Shown in pieces: positions 13,268-22,738 of a stretch of DNA of 64,000 bases. Each line of letters opens with the position of its first letter. Positions within the stretch are counted from its first letter, which is position 1. Under the pieces are notes generated by a model. That model had not been told where the DNA came from. It was given only the letters and a program-made list of their open reading frames with translations, and did not search any database. The position numbers and the translations under genes were made by a program. The stretch spans positions 1 to 64,000 of the forward strand of contig JAKSJO010000004.1 of assembly GCA_024398125.1 (NCBI GenBank), given 5' to 3'. This DNA is from Bacteroidales bacterium (lineage in GTDB: Bacteria; Bacteroidota; Bacteroidia; Bacteroidales; UBA932).

Positions 13268-13684
13268 TTTTACAAAAGTGTCGAGGAGTGCGAGACTTTC
13301 GAGGAAAAGCTATACTTTTGCATGCGGCACATGTTCAAGCTGGAGAGCCGTCCCGAGAATCTTAGGGGAGAATACTTCGACAATCTCTTCAAGGCGGCTG
13401 ATACCGCGAACATGACCGCAAAGGAACACGAAGCATACATATTAGCCATGGCATCAGAACGCGACATAAGAAACCAGATCAGGTACGGCCGTATTCAGGG
13501 TCACAGGGAAGGTTACAAGGAGGGCCTGGAAGAGGGTATCGAACAAGGTATTAAGCAGGGACTCGAGAAAGGGAAAGCCGAGCTAAAGCTTGAAACAGCA
13601 AAGAGGTTCAAGGCTGCTGGCGTTGATTTGACAATCATAGCCGAATGCACAGGACTTGATATTGAGACTATCACTGCTTTGTAA
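13268..13684 (+). pseudogene. Remnant of an Rpn-type nuclease/transposase (C-terminal part)
   Basis: The reading frame FYKSVEECETFEEKLYFCMR continues into RHMFKLESRPENL and a Gly/Glu/Lys-rich coiled region (REGYKEGLEEGIEQGIKQG), ending QTITAL-like. This is the C-terminal half of the PD-(D/E)XK Rpn family often annotated as recombination-promoting nuclease or putative transposase. In the same frame a TAG at 13265-13267 lies just upstream, and no N-terminal nuclease core with its PD-(D/E)XK residues is encoded before it. An ATG at 13322 leaves 120 residues. It is best read as a decayed fragment, followed by a good terminator. Confidence 0.75.
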
Positions 13685-13781: not shown

Positions 13782-13813
13782 AAAAAAGAGGTCGTCCCGA
13801 AGGGCGACCTCTT
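13782..13813 (-). terminator. Terminator of the left lipoprotein gene
   Basis: Read on the minus strand: AGAGGTCGCCC, loop TTCG, GGACGACCTCT, then six T. It closely resembles the terminator of the right-hand lipoprotein gene at 21060-21087, so gene and terminator seem to have been duplicated together. Confidence 0.8.
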
Positions 13814-13838: not shown

Positions 13839-16808
13839 TTAGTTACGTGTCTTGACAGTGATAGGGAGCTTGATCTCTACATCGTGACCGAACATATCCT
13901 TAGCCTTGATAGTAAGGGTTGAAGGAACGTCAGCAACTGGGTTGGTAGAAGAAGATACAGTGGTGAAGCCGGTGATAGCACCAGATGCTACGGTAGGCTG
14001 CATGTACTCCTCGATACCGTTAGAGTTAGATGTAAGAGTTGCGCTAGAGATAGCGAGTGAGCTGTTGTAAGGTGCTTTGAGGTATGCGCTGTAGAGAGCG
14101 TCGCGTGAGCTTACACCCTTTACATAGATACCAAGGTTACCACCGATGATAGAGATAGGACCAGGAGTGGTTGAAGAACCACCGTAAACGATCTCATCGT
14201 ACTTAGGAAGTGCAGCAGTGTATCTGCCCTGGTAAGTAGCTTCGTAGTCTACACCGCCGATAGTTCCAAGGGCTTCACGTGCAGCAGCATCGTTGTCAGC
14301 AACCCAGCTCCAAGAGTAAGTGCTGTTGTAGATGCAGTTGTATACAGTCTCGAATGAGTCAACGTCAAGAGTGTAGTCAACGAATGCGCTGGTAACAGGG
14401 TGCTTACGCTCAGAAGAGATCTTACCGAAGTTGTAAACAACTGAGGTAGCGTGCTTGGTTGCGTTGTTGATGTACTTCTTGTCAACGTTGAGGGTAGCAG
14501 CACCATTTACGTTAACTGCAACATCACCGGTAGCAGGAGCGGCAGCTGGCTGAGACTCAGCGAAGCTGAAGTTATAGTTAGCAGCAAGACCTGCAGGGAA
14601 GTTGAATGCCTGAACAAGTGGCATGGTACCTGCGGTTGCAGTGCTAGCAGCCCATGAATCAGGAACGAGGTAGCAGTTGTATACACCGTTAACGATCTGG
14701 TTGGTCTTAGGAGAGTAACCAGCAGGAGTTGCGGTAGGGAGTACCTTGGTCATGCTAGCAGTCATGATAGCAACAACACGTGAAGCGTCGGTGAATACGA
14801 GCTTACCATTGTATGCCTTACCATCCTTGAATGAAGTCCACGCATCGGTAGAGTTCTTCTTAACAGTCTGAATAGCTACGACTGATGCAGGATCGAAGGT
14901 AGATGCAGAGAATGTAGCAACGAGAGCGCTAAGGTTAGCAGTAGTAGCAACTACAGTGTTGTTCTTATCGAGGAACTGAACATCGAAGATAGGCTGAGCA
15001 CCACCTGGAGTGAGAGCGTCGGTTGTCCAAGTTGCAGTAGCGGTAGAAGGAACGGCTCTAACAGTTGCAGCAACCTTAGCTGAAGGAGTTGTGTGGATAG
15101 TCTCGTGTGCAGGAGTGATAGTGGTAGCAAGTGAGTTCCACTCGTTAGCAGCAGCACCGATCTGTACATAGAATGCCTTTCCATCTGGGTCAACGAGAGT
15201 ACCATCCCAGTTAACAGCGTAAACGCGGAAACCGATGATATCGTTGATCTGATCATCACAGTTTACAGTGATGTCAAGCTCAGTACCCTCGATAGCGTTG
15301 TTAAGACCTTCGTAAGAGTAGTACTTCCATGCGCTGATCTCTGAGCTTGAAGACTCAACAGCGTTCTGGGTATCGAGTACTACATACATACCCTTAACAT
15401 CAGCTGCCTGGAAATATGGAGCTGCAGGGGCAGGAGGAGTAATGATAGAACCAAGGCTAACAGTGAATGGCTTGCCCTGAACTGCCTGATAAACAGGGAG
15501 ATCGTGACGATCGTCACCACCAGTTGAAGGAACGCCTGAATCAGCGACCCAGTTGTTCACAGTACCCTTCTTAGCCATTGCAACAGCAGGGGTAGGGAGA
15601 TCTGTGGTAGAAGCAGCCCATTTCTTCTCTACATAAGCGGTAGGAAGAGTTGCAGGAGCCTCAAGGATACTTGGGTTAGATGCATAGCTATAGCGGTTGT
15701 TGATCTGAGCAACAGGGGTCTCGTCTACGAGGAAGTCGAGTGCTGATGCAGGATTAACAGTACCAGCGGTAACAGTTACATCGTAACCTGAGATAGCGTC
15801 GCCAGCCTTTACAGCCCAAAGAACACTCTCCCATACAGGTGCGAGAGCAGTACCGTAGTTAACTCTTACAGCCTTCTTGAAAGCGTCCCAATCAGAGTTT
15901 GCCTTAAGGTTGAAGGTTACCTTGTAAAGACCGTTCTCGCCAGCCTTAGCCTGAGTCTGAGTCATGAGCTTGTCATAAGCAACAATCTTCTCGACAACTA
16001 CATTCTCGAGAGCCTCACCCTTTGTGTTGATGAGCTGGATCTTTGAAGGATCAAGCTTAGCGTTAGCAGGAGAAACGCGAACGAGGATTTCGGTACCACG
16101 GTTGAATGAAGCGCCCTCGGTGAAGGAAAGCTGGGTACCATTCTCAGGACCGAATACGTTAGCCTTTTCTGTTGCGTTAGCGATGTTTACAGGGATGTAG
16201 CCGCTTGCGTTTGCATGGTAATAAGCGTTATTATAAACATCACCTGCGAGAATTGACATGTAGCCAATCTCAACGTTGGTGCCGAGAACATAGCCATTCT
16301 CGAAGCCCTCTACGCCGTAGATAACGAGAGTGCCCTTCTCCTCATCCCAAACAGCGGTGATGCCGCTAGCAAGAGCAGCCTCTTCGCCGTCGATCATGAG
16401 CTTGCCGTCTACAACTGCTACGGTTGAACCCTTAGCGTAGTCGGTCTTCTCACCGTCACAGTACCAGAAACCATCCTCACCGATGGTCCATACTGAACCG
16501 TCCTTACCAGGAGCGCCGGCAGCACCGGCAGCACCAGCTGCACCAGGAGCACCGTCCTTTCCGTTGGTAATGTCATAAGTACCGTTAGTGGTAACGACCT
16601 GGATACCATTAGCGGTCTTGTTTACTGCAGTAAGGATTGCGCCGTTTGCAATCTGACCCTGGATAGCAGTGAGAGACTTCTCAGCTGCGTCCATTCTGGT
16701 GTTCAGGCTGTCAATGTCGGCTGAATAATCCTTAGTACAGCTGGTAAGCAATGCTGCACCGGCAACGGCGAGCATAGCAGCCATTCTAATGATTTTTTTC
16801 ATAAACAT
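13839..16808 (-). CDS. Left phase-variable surface lipoprotein (PL29/DUF4988 N-terminal domain), probably silent in this orientation
   Basis: 989 residues from ATG 16808, or 987 from the second ATG (16802) that gives a cleaner lipoprotein signal ending LLTSC. After the Cys come a short coiled coil (SLNTRMDAAEKSLTAIQGQI), a beta stretch, collagen-like Gly-X-Y triplets (GAPGAAGAAGAAGAPGKDG) and the SVWTIGEDGFWYCDGEKTDY motif of the PL29 N-terminal domain. From about residue 135 it diverges from the right-hand copy but keeps patches such as GFRVYAVNWDGTLVDPDG. No enzyme motif is seen. No TAnnTTTG lies upstream on its strand, unlike the right copy. Codon use is the strongly biased kind of abundant proteins. 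Confidence 0.85.
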   Translation of the reverse strand: MFMKKIIRMAAMLAVAGAALLTSCTKDYSADIDSLNTRMDAAEKSLTAIQGQIANGAILTAVNKTANGIQVVTTNGTYDITNGKDGAPGAAGAAGAAGAPGKDGSVWTIGEDGFWYCDGEKTDYAKGSTVAVVDGKLMIDGEEAALASGITAVWDEEKGTLVIYGVEGFENGYVLGTNVEIGYMSILAGDVYNNAYYHANASGYIPVNIANATEKANVFGPENGTQLSFTEGASFNRGTEILVRVSPANAKLDPSKIQLINTKGEALENVVVEKIVAYDKLMTQTQAKAGENGLYKVTFNLKANSDWDAFKKAVRVNYGTALAPVWESVLWAVKAGDAISGYDVTVTAGTVNPASALDFLVDETPVAQINNRYSYASNPSILEAPATLPTAYVEKKWAASTTDLPTPAVAMAKKGTVNNWVADSGVPSTGGDDRHDLPVYQAVQGKPFTVSLGSIITPPAPAAPYFQAADVKGMYVVLDTQNAVESSSSEISAWKYYSYEGLNNAIEGTELDITVNCDDQINDIIGFRVYAVNWDGTLVDPDGKAFYVQIGAAANEWNSLATTITPAHETIHTTPSAKVAATVRAVPSTATATWTTDALTPGGAQPIFDVQFLDKNNTVVATTANLSALVATFSASTFDPASVVAIQTVKKNSTDAWTSFKDGKAYNGKLVFTDASRVVAIMTASMTKVLPTATPAGYSPKTNQIVNGVYNCYLVPDSWAASTATAGTMPLVQAFNFPAGLAANYNFSFAESQPAAAPATGDVAVNVNGAATLNVDKKYINNATKHATSVVYNFGKISSERKHPVTSAFVDYTLDVDSFETVYNCIYNSTYSWSWVADNDAAAREALGTIGGVDYEATYQGRYTAALPKYDEIVYGGSSTTPGPISIIGGNLGIYVKGVSSRDALYSAYLKAPYNSSLAISSATLTSNSNGIEEYMQPTVASGAITGFTTVSSSTNPVADVPSTLTIKAKDMFGHDVEIKLPITVKTRN

Positions 16809-16862
16809 TAAAAATTAAAAAAGTAAAACTATTGTTGTTTTGTTGTTTGTTTCTTGCCGTAA
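16414..16862 (-). repeat. Left arm of the long inverted repeat
   Basis: The first 395 bases of the left lipoprotein gene (16808 down to 16414) match bases 18083-18477 of the right one base for base as I read them, in opposite orientation. The similarity extends outward from the gene starts through an AT-rich leader to a 13-bp motif TTACGGCAAGAAA (minus strand 16850-16862), after which it stops inside the intervening recombinase segment. Confidence 0.9.
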
Positions 16863-16910
16863 TAAGCGTAAAATGGGTATTTGACTTACCAATCATTACA
16901 CCTATTAATA

Positions 16911-17858
16911 ATGCTTATGATAAATCCATTTACCCGTCCTCGTATGCTCGATAGAGCGTTCGAGGTCAAGATGACCCGTTTATTATCCGAAGGAAAGATC
17001 AATTCGTACTATAGATACAGGTCCACCCTGCACGCAATCCAGTCTTTCGCGGGGAGTGAAATACGCGTAACGGATGTGGACTCTTGCTGGCTGAAAAGAT
17101 GCTCGCGCCAATGGGAGACAAGAGGTTTGTCCTCGACGACTATACGAATCTATATGTGTGCCCTTAAAAGCATCTGGCACGATCTTGAGCGCCAAGGACA
17201 GGTCCGCCGCGCCAGGAATCCCTTTGCCGACTATACGGTCCCGCCGCCAGTCAGGCGTCGAATGGCTCTCAGCCGCGATGCCGTCAGGCGTATTTCCGAG
17301 TGGAAAGGCAATGCCACAGTCGAGATGTACCGCGACCTATGGCTTTTCTCCTATATGTGCAACGGGATAAACTTCAGGGATCTGCTTTTCCTCAAATACA
17401 AGAACATCGTAGACGGAGAAATCGTGTTTGAGAGATCAAAGACAAAAGGAAAGATGAAGGAAACTCACCTGATTCATGCCGCGGTAAGCGATAGGATGAA
17501 AGATATAATCGAGAGGATAGGTAATAAAAGAATCACCTCCGATACATATATATTTAGATACGCGCGCGAAGGCATGACTCCGATGGAAATCTCATCTATG
17601 GTTCGAAAGACAATCTACCTATGCAACCGAAGCCTGAGGACAATAGCCGATGAACTCGGAATCGAGCATTTCACGACGTATTCGGCACGCCATTCCTTTG
17701 CGACCATTCTTAACAAAAGCGGGGTAGATATAAGCTTCATCTCCGAATCTCTGGGACACAACAGTTTAGAGACGACAAAGGTCTACCTGGCAGGGTTCGA
17801 CAGAGAGGAACGACGTAAAATTTCAAGTTTTTTAACAGATTTTTGCAACAAAGAGTAA
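16911..17858 (+). CDS. Tyrosine recombinase (putative DNA invertase of the flanking lipoprotein genes)
   Basis: 315 residues from ATG 16911 (ATG 16917 is also possible; a TTG at 16881 would add ten unlikely residues). A SAM-like core-binding domain covers about 15-110 and the catalytic domain the rest. Counting from 16911, visible catalytic residues are Arg156 (NGINFRDLL), Lys177/179 (SKTKGK), Arg260 (TTYSARHSFA), His283 (LGHNS) and the nucleophile Tyr292 (TTKVYLAGF). The usual box II His is Tyr257 here, a change common in Bacteroidota integrases. There is no arm-binding N-terminal domain. Its place between two inverted paralogues suggests it inverts them; other targets are possible. No promoter of its own is obvious. 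Confidence 0.9.
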   Translation: MLMINPFTRPRMLDRAFEVKMTRLLSEGKINSYYRYRSTLHAIQSFAGSEIRVTDVDSCWLKRCSRQWETRGLSSTTIRIYMCALKSIWHDLERQGQVRRARNPFADYTVPPPVRRRMALSRDAVRRISEWKGNATVEMYRDLWLFSYMCNGINFRDLLFLKYKNIVDGEIVFERSKTKGKMKETHLIHAAVSDRMKDIIERIGNKRITSDTYIFRYAREGMTPMEISSMVRKTIYLCNRSLRTIADELGIEHFTTYSARHSFATILNKSGVDISFISESLGHNSLETTKVYLAGFDREERRKISSFLTDFCNKE

Positions 17859-17884
17859 GTTTTTTTCATCTATCTCGTAATAAG

Positions 17885-17907
17885 ATTGCATTCTGCGCGT
17901 ATGCAAT
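17885..17907. repeat. Short inverted repeat ATTGCAT/ATGCAAT upstream of the ON promoter
   Basis: ATTGCAT (17885-17891) and ATGCAAT (17901-17907) form a perfect 7-bp inverted repeat with 9-bp spacing just after the recombinase gene. Further ATTGCAT- or ATGCAT-like words occur at 17930, 17949 and 17963, around the promoter. It may be an operator or a recombinase binding array. Confidence 0.45.
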
Positions 17908-17929
17908 GAGCATTTTATTGAGAAAATAT

Positions 17930-17961
17930 ATTGCATAAGTGCTTTTTGATGCATATCTTTG
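17930..17961 (+). promoter_or_regulatory. Promoter of the right lipoprotein gene
   Basis: A -33 box ATTG (17930-17933), 20 bp spacer and -7 box TATCTTTG (17954-17961) fit the Bacteroidota consensus TTTG-N19to21-TAnnTTTG. Transcription would begin near 17967, giving a leader of about 115 nt that contains the 13-bp motif shared with the other side. It lies inside the predicted invertible segment. Confidence 0.7.
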
Positions 17962-18033
17962 TGCATTGATTATTGTGCCCATACTGTGAGGTATTGTGTC
18001 CTAATGTGTATGATTGGCCTTAGTCGATGCTTG

Positions 18034-18477
18034 TTACGGCAAGAAATAAAACCAATATAGTTTAACTTTTTTTTAATTTTTAATGTTTATGAAAAAAATC
18101 ATTAGAATGGCTGCTATGCTCGCCGTTGCCGGTGCAGCATTGCTTACCAGCTGTACTAAGGATTATTCAGCCGACATTGACAGCCTGAACACCAGAATGG
18201 ACGCAGCTGAGAAGTCTCTCACTGCTATCCAGGGTCAGATTGCAAACGGCGCAATCCTTACTGCAGTAAACAAGACCGCTAATGGTATCCAGGTCGTTAC
18301 CACTAACGGTACTTATGACATTACCAACGGAAAGGACGGTGCTCCTGGTGCAGCTGGTGCTGCCGGTGCTGCCGGCGCTCCTGGTAAGGACGGTTCAGTA
18401 TGGACCATCGGTGAGGATGGTTTCTGGTACTGTGACGGTGAGAAGACCGACTACGCTAAGGGTTCAACCGTAGCAGT
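18034..18477 (+). repeat. Right arm of the long inverted repeat
   Basis: Mirror partner of 16414-16862. It begins with TTACGGCAAGAAA (18034-18046), continues through a partly conserved AT-rich leader and then 395 bases of identical coding sequence (18083-18477). Beyond 18477 the two genes keep only patchy similarity to about 18640 and then clearly diverge. Confidence 0.9.
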
Positions 18478-21034
18478 AGAGGACGGCAAGCTCATGATCG
18501 ACGGCAAAGAGGCTGGTACCATCAACGGTATCACCGCTGTTTGGGATGAGGAGAAGGGCACTCTCGTTATCTATGGCGTAGAGGGCTTCGAGAATGGTTA
18601 TGTTCTCGGCACCAACGTTGAGATCAGCTATATCGCTGAGTATGCTAACGACTACGGTTATACCTACACCAATTCACCAGCTTCACTTGGTCACTATGCT
18701 ATCAGCTTCAAAAAGTACACTGAGCTTGATAACGTATACCCTGCAAATGGTGATGTTAACGGCAAGAAGTACACCTTCGTTAAGAATAATACCGTTACCC
18801 ATGGTGATAAAGTGCTTATCCGCGTTTCTCCTACCAATGCAAAGGTAAACGCTGAGGATCTCTGCTTCATCAACGCTGCTGGCGAGGAGCTTTCTTATGT
18901 AAAGGTTGCTAAGGTTACTCCTTACGAGGAGGTTCTTACCAGAGCATCTTCAAAGTCAGGCCTCTACGAGCTCGACCTCGTAATGGAGGAGAATCTTCCT
19001 GCTGCTGATTGGAATGCTGCTACCACTGCAAAGGTTGGTACCGTAACCCGTCCTATCGCTTTCGCTGTTGCTGCTAAAAATGCTAACGATGGCAAGGCTA
19101 TCTCTGGTTATGTTTACACCTTCGCTACCGCTGATGGTTCACGCGCTAGCAATGAGATCTTCGTTAACGGCAAGAGCATCTCTACTATCCACAACCGTTT
19201 CTCAGCTGCTGAGGACGGTACTCTTACCAACGCTATCGAGGAACTCGTTTGGAAGTCTTATCCAACTGATGTAACCGGTCAGGATCCTAAGACTACCGTT
19301 ACCAAGGCTGGTGCAAAGGCTAACGTTAACAACGATAAGACAGGTACTGCTTCTGATAACCGTCAGACACAGGCTATCCTTGGTGTAATCAAGGGTGAGA
19401 AGATCACCATCGACATCGCTAACACACTCGCTCCATACGCTGCTGACGAGGTTAAGGGTTTCATCGTATCTCTTGACGAGACACACGCTGTTGAGTCTGT
19501 TCCTTCAGAGATCAACGCTTGGAAGTCTTACTCATACGAGAACCTCGGCGTTCTTCAGGATGGTAACAAGGGTTACATCACCGTTAACGACATGAACAAC
19601 GTTGCTGGTGACGTCATCGGTTTCCGCGTTATTGTTGTAAACATGGATGGTACTCTCGTTGACCCAGACGGCCGCGCATTCTATGTAATGGTTGGTGAGT
19701 CAGCTTCTGCTAACACCGTATCTGGTTCTATCGTTGCTACCGCTGCTCTTACAACCCTCAAGACTGACTTCATCCCAGTTTCAATGCCTATGGGTGTTAA
19801 TGCTGCACCTTCATGGACATGGGTAACTCCTGCAGCTCAGCTTGCAAACGGTACCGCTACTCCTTCACCTCTCTTCTCTGCAACCTTCTATAAGGAGGAC
19901 AAGACTTCAACTGTCGCTCTTACTGACTACACTAACTATGACAAGATCAAGTTCGTACAGTTCAGCACTAACGATATCGCCAAGTATGTTGATGGTAAGA
20001 CCTACACCCAGGAACTCAAGCTCCAGAAGACCTCTGGTTCTGCTACCTTCGATGTAATGACCCTTACCGCTAACATCACTAAGGTTCTCCCTACCGAGGC
20101 TAAGACTATCCAGTTCCGTCCTAAGCAGGAGGTTAATGCTGCTGGCGAGTCTGAGGATGGCACCAACATGTTCATCGCTTACATGGTTCCTGGTTCAAAT
20201 CCTCTCACCCCTGTTTACACCGTTGGCGCTACCCCTGCAACTCTCGCTTCTAAGAACCTTGATAACGTATTCTACGGCCTTGACGCTAACTACGTATTCA
20301 ACTTTGCAACTTCTAAGCTCAACGCTGCAGCTACCGCATACACCGAGGCTATGAAGTCAACTTACTCAACCTACCACAAGATTGAGGTTGATGCTAAGCT
20401 CGTTGGTGGTGATTGGCATGATGTAACCTATGGTTATAACTACGCTGGTGTATCTACCTATCAGAAGCCTGACAATACTTGGATGGTTGCTCAGGACTAC
20501 CTCCTCCCTGGTACTACTACCCTTAAGGCTAAGTACGCTTGCTGGGAGTCTGTATCAACCTTCGGTTGGTATAAGAGAGCTGCTTCTGGCTCAGGTGCTA
20601 CTGCACTCGCAGCTATTGATAGCACTCCTGCTCTCCAGTGGACTGCTACCGGTAACACTGTTAACAAGGACCTCAACGAGGTAACCAGCCACAATACCTA
20701 CAACAACGACTACTTCGGCAAGGATCTTAATGTTCTCATCAACACTAACAACTGGCTCAAGTATGTTGCAGGTAGCGCTAAGCTTACCGTTAACGGTCAG
20801 GTTAACCCTTACTTCACTGTAACTGTTAATCCTTCTATTACTGCTACATGGGCAGTAACTGGAAACACCATCACTCCTGCTGCTGGACAGATTGTCTTCA
20901 CCCAGGTTGGTACCCAGATTGACTCTGCTCCTGTTGCTGATCACGTTGAGAAGCTCGAAATGCAGTTCGAGGATGCATTCGGTCACAAGACAACTATCTC
21001 TGTTGACGTGAAGATTCTCGCTCCTTCTCATTAA
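18083..21034 (+). CDS. Right phase-variable surface lipoprotein (PL29/DUF4988 N-terminal domain), probably expressed in this orientation
   Basis: 983 residues from ATG 18083 (981 from ATG 18089). Its first 131 residues are identical to the left copy: lipoprotein signal with LLTSC, coiled coil, collagen-like triplets, and the GEDGFWYCDGEKTDY motif. GITAVWDEEKGTLVIYGVEG is also shared. The remaining 800 residues are a different beta-rich ectodomain with only islands in common (GDVIGFRVIVVNMDGTLVDP, KVLPTE). No catalytic residues or known carbohydrate-binding motif are seen. The 5' promoter, biased codons rich in GCT, AAC and GTT, and a strong terminator suggest high expression. A surface antigen or attachment role is inference. 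Confidence 0.88.
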   Translation: MFMKKIIRMAAMLAVAGAALLTSCTKDYSADIDSLNTRMDAAEKSLTAIQGQIANGAILTAVNKTANGIQVVTTNGTYDITNGKDGAPGAAGAAGAAGAPGKDGSVWTIGEDGFWYCDGEKTDYAKGSTVAVEDGKLMIDGKEAGTINGITAVWDEEKGTLVIYGVEGFENGYVLGTNVEISYIAEYANDYGYTYTNSPASLGHYAISFKKYTELDNVYPANGDVNGKKYTFVKNNTVTHGDKVLIRVSPTNAKVNAEDLCFINAAGEELSYVKVAKVTPYEEVLTRASSKSGLYELDLVMEENLPAADWNAATTAKVGTVTRPIAFAVAAKNANDGKAISGYVYTFATADGSRASNEIFVNGKSISTIHNRFSAAEDGTLTNAIEELVWKSYPTDVTGQDPKTTVTKAGAKANVNNDKTGTASDNRQTQAILGVIKGEKITIDIANTLAPYAADEVKGFIVSLDETHAVESVPSEINAWKSYSYENLGVLQDGNKGYITVNDMNNVAGDVIGFRVIVVNMDGTLVDPDGRAFYVMVGESASANTVSGSIVATAALTTLKTDFIPVSMPMGVNAAPSWTWVTPAAQLANGTATPSPLFSATFYKEDKTSTVALTDYTNYDKIKFVQFSTNDIAKYVDGKTYTQELKLQKTSGSATFDVMTLTANITKVLPTEAKTIQFRPKQEVNAAGESEDGTNMFIAYMVPGSNPLTPVYTVGATPATLASKNLDNVFYGLDANYVFNFATSKLNAAATAYTEAMKSTYSTYHKIEVDAKLVGGDWHDVTYGYNYAGVSTYQKPDNTWMVAQDYLLPGTTTLKAKYACWESVSTFGWYKRAASGSGATALAAIDSTPALQWTATGNTVNKDLNEVTSHNTYNNDYFGKDLNVLINTNNWLKYVAGSAKLTVNGQVNPYFTVTVNPSITATWAVTGNTITPAAGQIVFTQVGTQIDSAPVADHVEKLEMQFEDAFGHKTTISVDVKILAPSH

Positions 21035-21059: not shown

Positions 21060-21087
21060 GAGGCCGCCCTTCGGGACGGCCTCTTTT
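21060..21087 (+). terminator. Terminator of the right lipoprotein gene
   Basis: GAGGCCGCCC, loop TTCG, GGACGGCCTC, then TTTT. It is a near copy of the left gene's terminator. Confidence 0.85.
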
Positions 21088-21127: not shown

Positions 21128-21160
21128 TTTGCCGAGTATCTTGTTTTTTTGCTACCTTTG
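21128..21160 (+). promoter_or_regulatory. Promoter of the OmpA-family gene
   Basis: TTTG (21128-21131), 21 bp, then TACCTTTG (21153-21160): a full Bacteroidota consensus. The leader is about 47 nt and AT-rich. Confidence 0.7.
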
Positions 21161-22489: not shown

Positions 22490-22738
22490 AGCTTTCTTAG
22501 CTTATTTCTCAAATAATCTTTCTTGATGGGGAAATATACATCTCACGGAGGGCGTGTCTACCCTCGGACACGTTAGAGGGGGGACCGCCACGCAGTGGTG
22601 GTGGGATGGAGCGAAGCGGAACCCTCCCGTGAGATGTATATTCCCACAGTCGAGCGATAGCGAGACGGTGTAGGAGAAGAACTACATCCAGACTAAGAAA
22701 GAAGTGGAACCCTCCCGTGAAATATATATTCCCACCAA
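22490..22738. repeat. Intergenic block with nested inverted and direct repeats
   Basis: The 300 bp between the tRNA and the next gene hold no credible gene. ATATACATCTCACGG (22535-22549 region) is mirrored by CCGTGAGATGTATATT (22628-22643), giving a large cruciform-like structure over about 75 bp that contains ACCGCCAC/GTGGTGGT. A direct near-copy of the right arm, CCCTCCCGTGAAATATATAT, follows at about 22710-22730. CTTTCTTAG (22492-22500) is mirrored by CTAAGAAAG (22692-22700). It looks like a dispersed non-coding repeat rather than a regulator. Confidence 0.65.

Follow-up and report, generated by a model that had tools for sequence, protein, structure and literature searches.

Two large surface lipoprotein genes lie head to head around a single tyrosine recombinase gene in the 64,000-nucleotide stretch of Bacteroidales DNA analysed here (the window), which raises the question of whether the locus chooses between them, and by what means. 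An earlier note proposed that inversion of the 16.4-18.5 kb segment swaps the ectodomain that is expressed. The ORF calls agree with its description of the two opposite genes as nearly equal in length: gene L (13839-16808, minus strand) encodes 989 residues and gene R (18083-21034, plus strand), which faces the promoter described below, encodes 983, sizes in keeping with a surface lipoprotein of about 100 kDa. The locus is probably a switch with two states, in which inversion of a promoter selects between alternative surface lipoproteins of S-layer type, a judgement made after weighing related loci with no repeat pairs and the dependence of the 22-bp repeat on the duplicated 5' ends.

The leader, signal peptide and stalk of the two genes form a long inverted repeat of 565 nt (97% identity), the left arm of which lies at 16258-16822 (minus strand) and the right arm at 18069-18633 (plus strand). 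Its inner 390 bp (16433-16822 and 18069-18458) are free of mismatches, close to the roughly 395 bp of identity previously noted. Within the coding sequences, the two genes have identical DNA (100%) for the first 360 nt; identity is 95, 83 and 97% in the following 60-nt intervals, and past about 540 nt it drops sharply to 30-77%. Past residue 200, the proteins are 33% identical, or 30% when three sequences are aligned. Among the 49 contigs of the genome, the shared 5' end is present in these two copies only. Both N-termini are lipoprotein-like and contain LLTSC, which we take to be the lipobox. Terminator-like hairpins follow both genes, at 13784-13811 (minus strand) and 21060-21087 (plus strand); they pair with one another as inverted copies of 28 nt (93% identity) and are accompanied by a T run.

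Matches to DUF4988 and collagen models, weak ones in L, lie below the Pfam cut-offs, and the search against solved structures returned one weak match, of R to a collagen-like phage fibre. The PL29 label formerly attached to the ectodomains was rejected, as the hyaluronate lyase model NF058554 matches residues 3-122 of L only, scoring 16.8 bits where the cut-off is 1100, and R has no NCBIfam match. Among 101 proteins of at least 600 residues from the loci gathered before that of relative G211, the best ectodomain match had an E value of 0.0088; the R ectodomain matches the G211 protein at 1.3e-115. Adjoining L, a 120-residue frame (13322-13684) has a single Pfam match, Yae1_N, below cut-off; it presumably resembles the tail of an Rpn-type nuclease/transposase.

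The recombinase gene (16881-17858, plus strand) starts at a TTG, with in-frame ATGs at 16911 and 16917. Its product has SAM-like and phage-integrase domains, matching PF13102 and PF00589 above cut-off, and no Arm domain was found in the domain search. The catalytic residues R151, K187, R270, H271, H293 and Y302 are invariant in all eight aligned sequences. Within the 49 contigs, no other full-length relative was found, and there were two matches of about 40 residues. Near the gene end, TTTTTGCAACAAA (17840-17852) also occurs at the matching place in G211, which has no recombinase there, and is perhaps an insertion junction.

Inverted copies of a 22-bp repeat, GCTT(A/G)TTACGGCAAGAAA(C/T)AAA, lie outside the recombinase gene and directly upstream of both leaders, at 16846-16867 (minus strand) and 18029-18050 (plus strand). 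They are the proposed recombination sites and, like the paired hairpins, go unlisted in the earlier note. The pattern has two matches, compared with none in 100 shuffles, and the pair scores 16, compared with 13 for the best of 100 shuffles. The 13-bp core is less rare, with four perfect copies in the genome, two of them at the locus and two elsewhere, and four more with one mismatch; the reversed pattern has two. The viral contigs searched contain neither a recombinase relative nor a copy of the 22-bp site. The homology between L and R runs from the start codon to the 22-bp repeat, which abuts the duplicated 5' end, and stops there: past the repeat, the flanks inside the segment score 9, and the 95th percentile of shuffles is 10.

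Between the recombinase gene and the right repeat lies a promoter, TTG-N20-TATCTTTG (17931-17961, plus strand), that faces R. It is the one full promoter in the scanned segment flanks and points outward (shuffle chance 0.024). It is conserved in G030, G081, G117, G130 and G211, five relatives that lack a recombinase at this position. No TTG-N17-23-TAnnTTTG match is present within 300 bp upstream of L, which would be silent in the assembled orientation. The two-box scan found no promoter for the recombinase itself. When the region was scanned for sigma-70 promoters, nothing faced R and one site turned up on the opposite strand. TAnnTTTG is reported as the Bacteroides -7 consensus (PMC4747536). 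Taken by itself, the -7 element is at least as frequent around the locus as expected by chance, and the case for the promoter rests on the presence of both boxes with their spacing, together with conservation.

The proposed invertible segment is thus the 1.16 kb between the 22-bp repeats (16868-18028). Because it holds the promoter and the recombinase gene and no coding sequence of L or R, the locus is best described as a promoter switch. The enclosed recombinase would recombine the two repeats and flip the segment, which carries its own gene and the sole promoter found. As assembled, the promoter would drive R and leave L silent; a flip would reverse this. The two sides resemble each other in leader, signal peptide, stalk and terminator, so mainly the ectodomain would change. 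The segment is smaller than the one first suggested, and choice of ectodomain by flipping is still the reading with the best support; the proteins made would not depend on where in the identical 5' ends the breakpoints fall, so in function the result agrees with the original proposal. Exchange of coding segments was not retained as the main mechanism, given the identity of the 5' ends and the position of the only promoter found, inside the segment.

Downstream of R and its hairpin, an OmpA-type outer-membrane protein with barrel and OmpA domains (PF13505 and PF00691, both above cut-off) is encoded at about 21207/21213-22286 (plus strand). The two-box scan assigns it a separate promoter, TTG-N21-TACCTTTG (21129-21160, plus strand). 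By analogy with BT1926 of Bacteroides thetaiotaomicron, the protein is the proposed partner of both L and R, and a promoter of its own would fit supply in both states of the switch. The window gene is the only one of 13 OmpA genes with complete upstream sequence at recombinase loci to have such a promoter, and none of three OmpA genes at fixed loci has one. Seven of the other 12 lie 3' of a lipoprotein gene, as in the window. Further downstream, past a tRNA-Val gene, a short repeated element is present in direct and inverted copies (22527-22735).

Loci without a recombinase indicate how the arrangement may have arisen. In G030, G081, G117 and G130, a single lipoprotein gene follows the conserved promoter, a BatD-like gene lies upstream and no recombinase is found between them; an OmpA gene lies downstream in the three of these loci where it is listed. 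The flanks of the G211 locus are syntenic with the window (80% over 7.1 kb upstream and 88% over 1.3 kb that include the OmpA gene). At the promoter, this near relative has a single lipoprotein gene of comparable size, with a 677-residue relative behind it and no such recombinase. Since the four more distant fixed loci likewise lack L and the recombinase, a gain by the window of about 4.8 kb carrying both is more likely than a loss in G211.

The G211 leader matches the right 22-bp repeat at 20 of 22 positions. The right site would thus have arisen from ordinary leader sequence, and the left one as the edge of a duplicated 5' end. For this reason, the 22-bp repeat carries less weight as separate evidence and is not independent proof of a recombination site; the weight of the argument falls on the missing promoter of L, the exact edge of homology and the other loci that enclose a recombinase. 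Over the N-terminal 180 codons, dS is 0.057 between L and R and 0.44 in comparison with G211, whereas the L and R ectodomains are far apart (dS about 1.6), which indicates homogenisation of the 5' ends since the lineages of the window and G211 parted. Compared with the G211 gene, the ectodomains have the look of a mosaic: that gene is nearer to L at alignment columns 200-300 (56 vs 35%) and mostly nearer to R from column 400. A BLAST result had suggested that L is a simple orthologue of the G211 gene; the alignment ruled this out.

To survey the genus, a profile of eight recombinases was run against 400 genomes, of which 33 matched at E <= 1e-50. The loci of the 25 closest matches were opened, 24 at 398 bits or more (the window included) plus G075 at 238 bits, and weaker matches were left out of the counts. 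Eight of the weaker-match loci were inspected by eye, and in none of them is the recombinase directly flanked by a stalk-type lipoprotein or OmpA gene. Of the 25 loci, 17 have the recombinase next to a large lipoprotein or OmpA gene. In five (G379, G377, G325, G110 and G271) the contig breaks off less than 620 bp from the recombinase, and in three (G338, G392 and G139) neither gene was seen, G139 having smaller lipoproteins. In the recombinase tree, G392 and G139 cluster with mobile-element integrases, and G204 and G021 are sisters (100/100). The window, G368, G137 and G330 are placed near G204 and G021 in no resolved order, the window and G330 on long branches.

Across the order, recombinase matches were found in 47 of 393 genomes, the one under study included. 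In 12 loci from 11 of these genomes, no OmpA gene was present in the stretch inspected, and the neighbours, judged by eye, look like mobile elements. Three named records carry the recombinase; the two close ones (about 50%) are from uncultured Bacteroidales, one of them from water-buffalo colon. At G053 (L043 1-2119), the OmpA gene lies tail to tail with a recombinase that lacks most of the N-terminal Arm region, and the contig stops inside the OmpA gene.

In four of the 25 loci, the recombinase is enclosed by inverted repeats whose scores exceed that of the best shuffle: 22 bp in the window, 31 bp in G204, 24 bp in G021 and 18 bp in G368. All four have one full outward promoter and none inward in the scanned stretch, the shuffle chance of one outward promoter being 0.032 in G204, 0.019 in G021 and 0.018 in G368, beside 0.024 in the window. 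The promoter reads the same way as the recombinase gene in the window and the opposite way in the other three. Surface genes flank both sides in the window and G204. In G021 and G368, a surface gene or operon is present on one side only, and the promoter points away from it. The two-sided layout recurs in G204, which has an OmpA-lipoprotein operon on each side, and thus two OmpA copies instead of one shared gene; the OmpA copies are 81% identical and the lipoproteins 27%, and no promoter was found in the 210-225 nt outside the repeats. As G021, the sister of G204, is one-sided, the window and G204 may have become two-sided independently.

Among the other 21 loci, six have a promoter segment between the recombinase and the surface gene, flanked by inverted repeats. 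The repeats exceed the best of 40 shuffles in G075, G386, G158 and G137 and equal it in G041 and G114, and GTTACACATTGTAAC or a close form is present as the site in several of these loci. The promoter, in each case a consensus match, faces the gene in G075, G041 and G114 and points away in G386, G158 and G137, so both promoter orientations exist across species. Neither kind of repeat pair was found at the level used in 15 of the 25 loci. Comparison of orientations among relatives, suggested earlier as a check, thus gave both states between species of the genus, but the opposite one was not seen in the organism itself, the assembly of which holds a single orientation. The G075 recombinase (L048 7518-8558) lacks two stretches, one of them catalytic, and looks degenerate; with its promoter segment facing the gene, that switch is perhaps locked on.

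Inversion might instead proceed by homologous recombination between the 5' arms, the recombinase being a bystander or acting elsewhere. In its favour are the inverted, mismatch-free arms of 390 bp, homogenised after the split from G211, and the two perfect 13-bp cores elsewhere in the genome. However, the recombinase gene is intact and lies inside the segment, and in G021 and G368, where just one side has a surface gene, short repeats enclose the recombinase; we consider this route unlikely. There is likewise only a small chance that the arrangement is fixed, with L a silent or separately expressed duplicate and the recombinase a relic or one that serves another locus. The single orientation seen, the 22-bp repeat explicable as a duplication edge and the degenerate look of the recombinase neighbouring the G075 surface gene would all fit a fixed locus, but L is an intact frame with a terminator, its 5' end has been kept identical to that of R, the homology ends at the edge of the promoter segment and comparable loci elsewhere show both promoter orientations.

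That the order or orientation around the repeats was misassembled is very improbable. The assembly comprises 49 contigs, the identical arms exceed the usual short read, and contigs break near the recombinase in five of the 25 related loci; yet outside the identical core each copy has differences of its own, the contig extends over 97 kb with both flanks syntenic with G211, and the layout recurs in G204. The sequence itself shows the anatomy of the locus, the single outward promoter with its conservation, and the comparative series; from there we infer that the recombinase acts on the 22-bp sites, that the promoter segment flips and that the products form a surface layer.

Known switches share parts of this layout. 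At the sapA locus of Campylobacter fetus, S-layer genes with shared 5' ends flank an invertible promoter. The window resembles it in having two-sided surface-layer genes with shared 5' ends but differs in that the proteins are unrelated and the recombination machinery is another; we know of no recombinase gene inside the sapA invertible segment. In the hin switch of Salmonella, an outward promoter lies on the segment and control is exerted via a repressor. As in this flagellar switch, Hin/fljBA, the recombinase gene of the window lies inside the invertible segment (PMC5903667, PMC11868660), although Hin is a serine recombinase and the window enzyme a tyrosine recombinase (PF00589). In the Tsr19/BF2766 promoter inversions of Bacteroides fragilis, a tyrosine recombinase is likewise encoded near a promoter that it inverts; unlike in the window, its gene is not within the segment, two loci are acted on and the outcome is on/off control (PMC4747536).

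The closest likeness is to BT1927 of B. thetaiotaomicron, reported as a 100-kDa phase-variable S-layer lipoprotein with BT1926 as a putative beta-barrel anchor (PMC12578637) and a promoter that inverts between repeats (PMC12548429). Seven other upregulated loci of that species are described as having an integrase, an S-layer protein, an OmpA gene and a shared repeat (PMC12118408). The window likewise combines lipoproteins of about 100 kDa, a beta-barrel/OmpA partner, an adjacent tyrosine recombinase and a promoter flanked by inverted repeats. It differs in that one promoter serves two alternative lipoprotein genes rather than turning one operon on and off, the recombinase lies inside the segment and the OmpA gene has its own promoter. 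The locus, which the earlier note did not recognise as a described system, is best regarded as a two-sided BT1927-type variant with an enclosed recombinase, a fit judged on layout. In the titles and abstracts of the literature consulted, no description of this particular layout was found. The BT1927 coat is reported to bear on phage and complement resistance (PMC12548429), and by that precedent coat identity in gut Bacteroidales bears on both.

If the promoter-switch reading is true, the genus offers a readable series. It would run from a fixed promoter with one gene (G211, G030, G081, G117 and G130) to a promoter segment beside a recombinase (G386, G158, G075 and others), then to an enclosed recombinase with a one-sided surface gene (G021 and G368) and finally to the choice between two coats (the window and G204). 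Related bacteria apparently have the simpler on/off version, whereas a flip in the window would choose the coat, and the series would allow a test of how antigen choice evolved out of on/off control. More tentatively, and with rather less than even confidence, we suggest that the switch governs surface-layer identity, the cell always bearing one of two coats on a constitutively supplied OmpA anchor rather than alternating between coated and naked. Such switches would have arisen more than once in the genus from on/off promoter switches (in the window species, in G204 with its two OmpA copies and possibly in G363 with a serine recombinase), and homogenised 5' ends would help to mix in new ectodomains.

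At G363 (L176 885-14514), a serine recombinase (Resolvase, PF00239) lies beside two convergent OmpA-lipoprotein operons, the 5' parts of which form a 1286-nt inverted repeat (90% identity); this is possibly a two-coat switch built on another type of recombinase. G242 (L177 and L178) has three lipoprotein genes with near-identical N-termini, two of which converge on a 7.3-kb contig, with each 5' end at an end of the contig; a 132-nt inverted repeat (96% identity) accompanies them.
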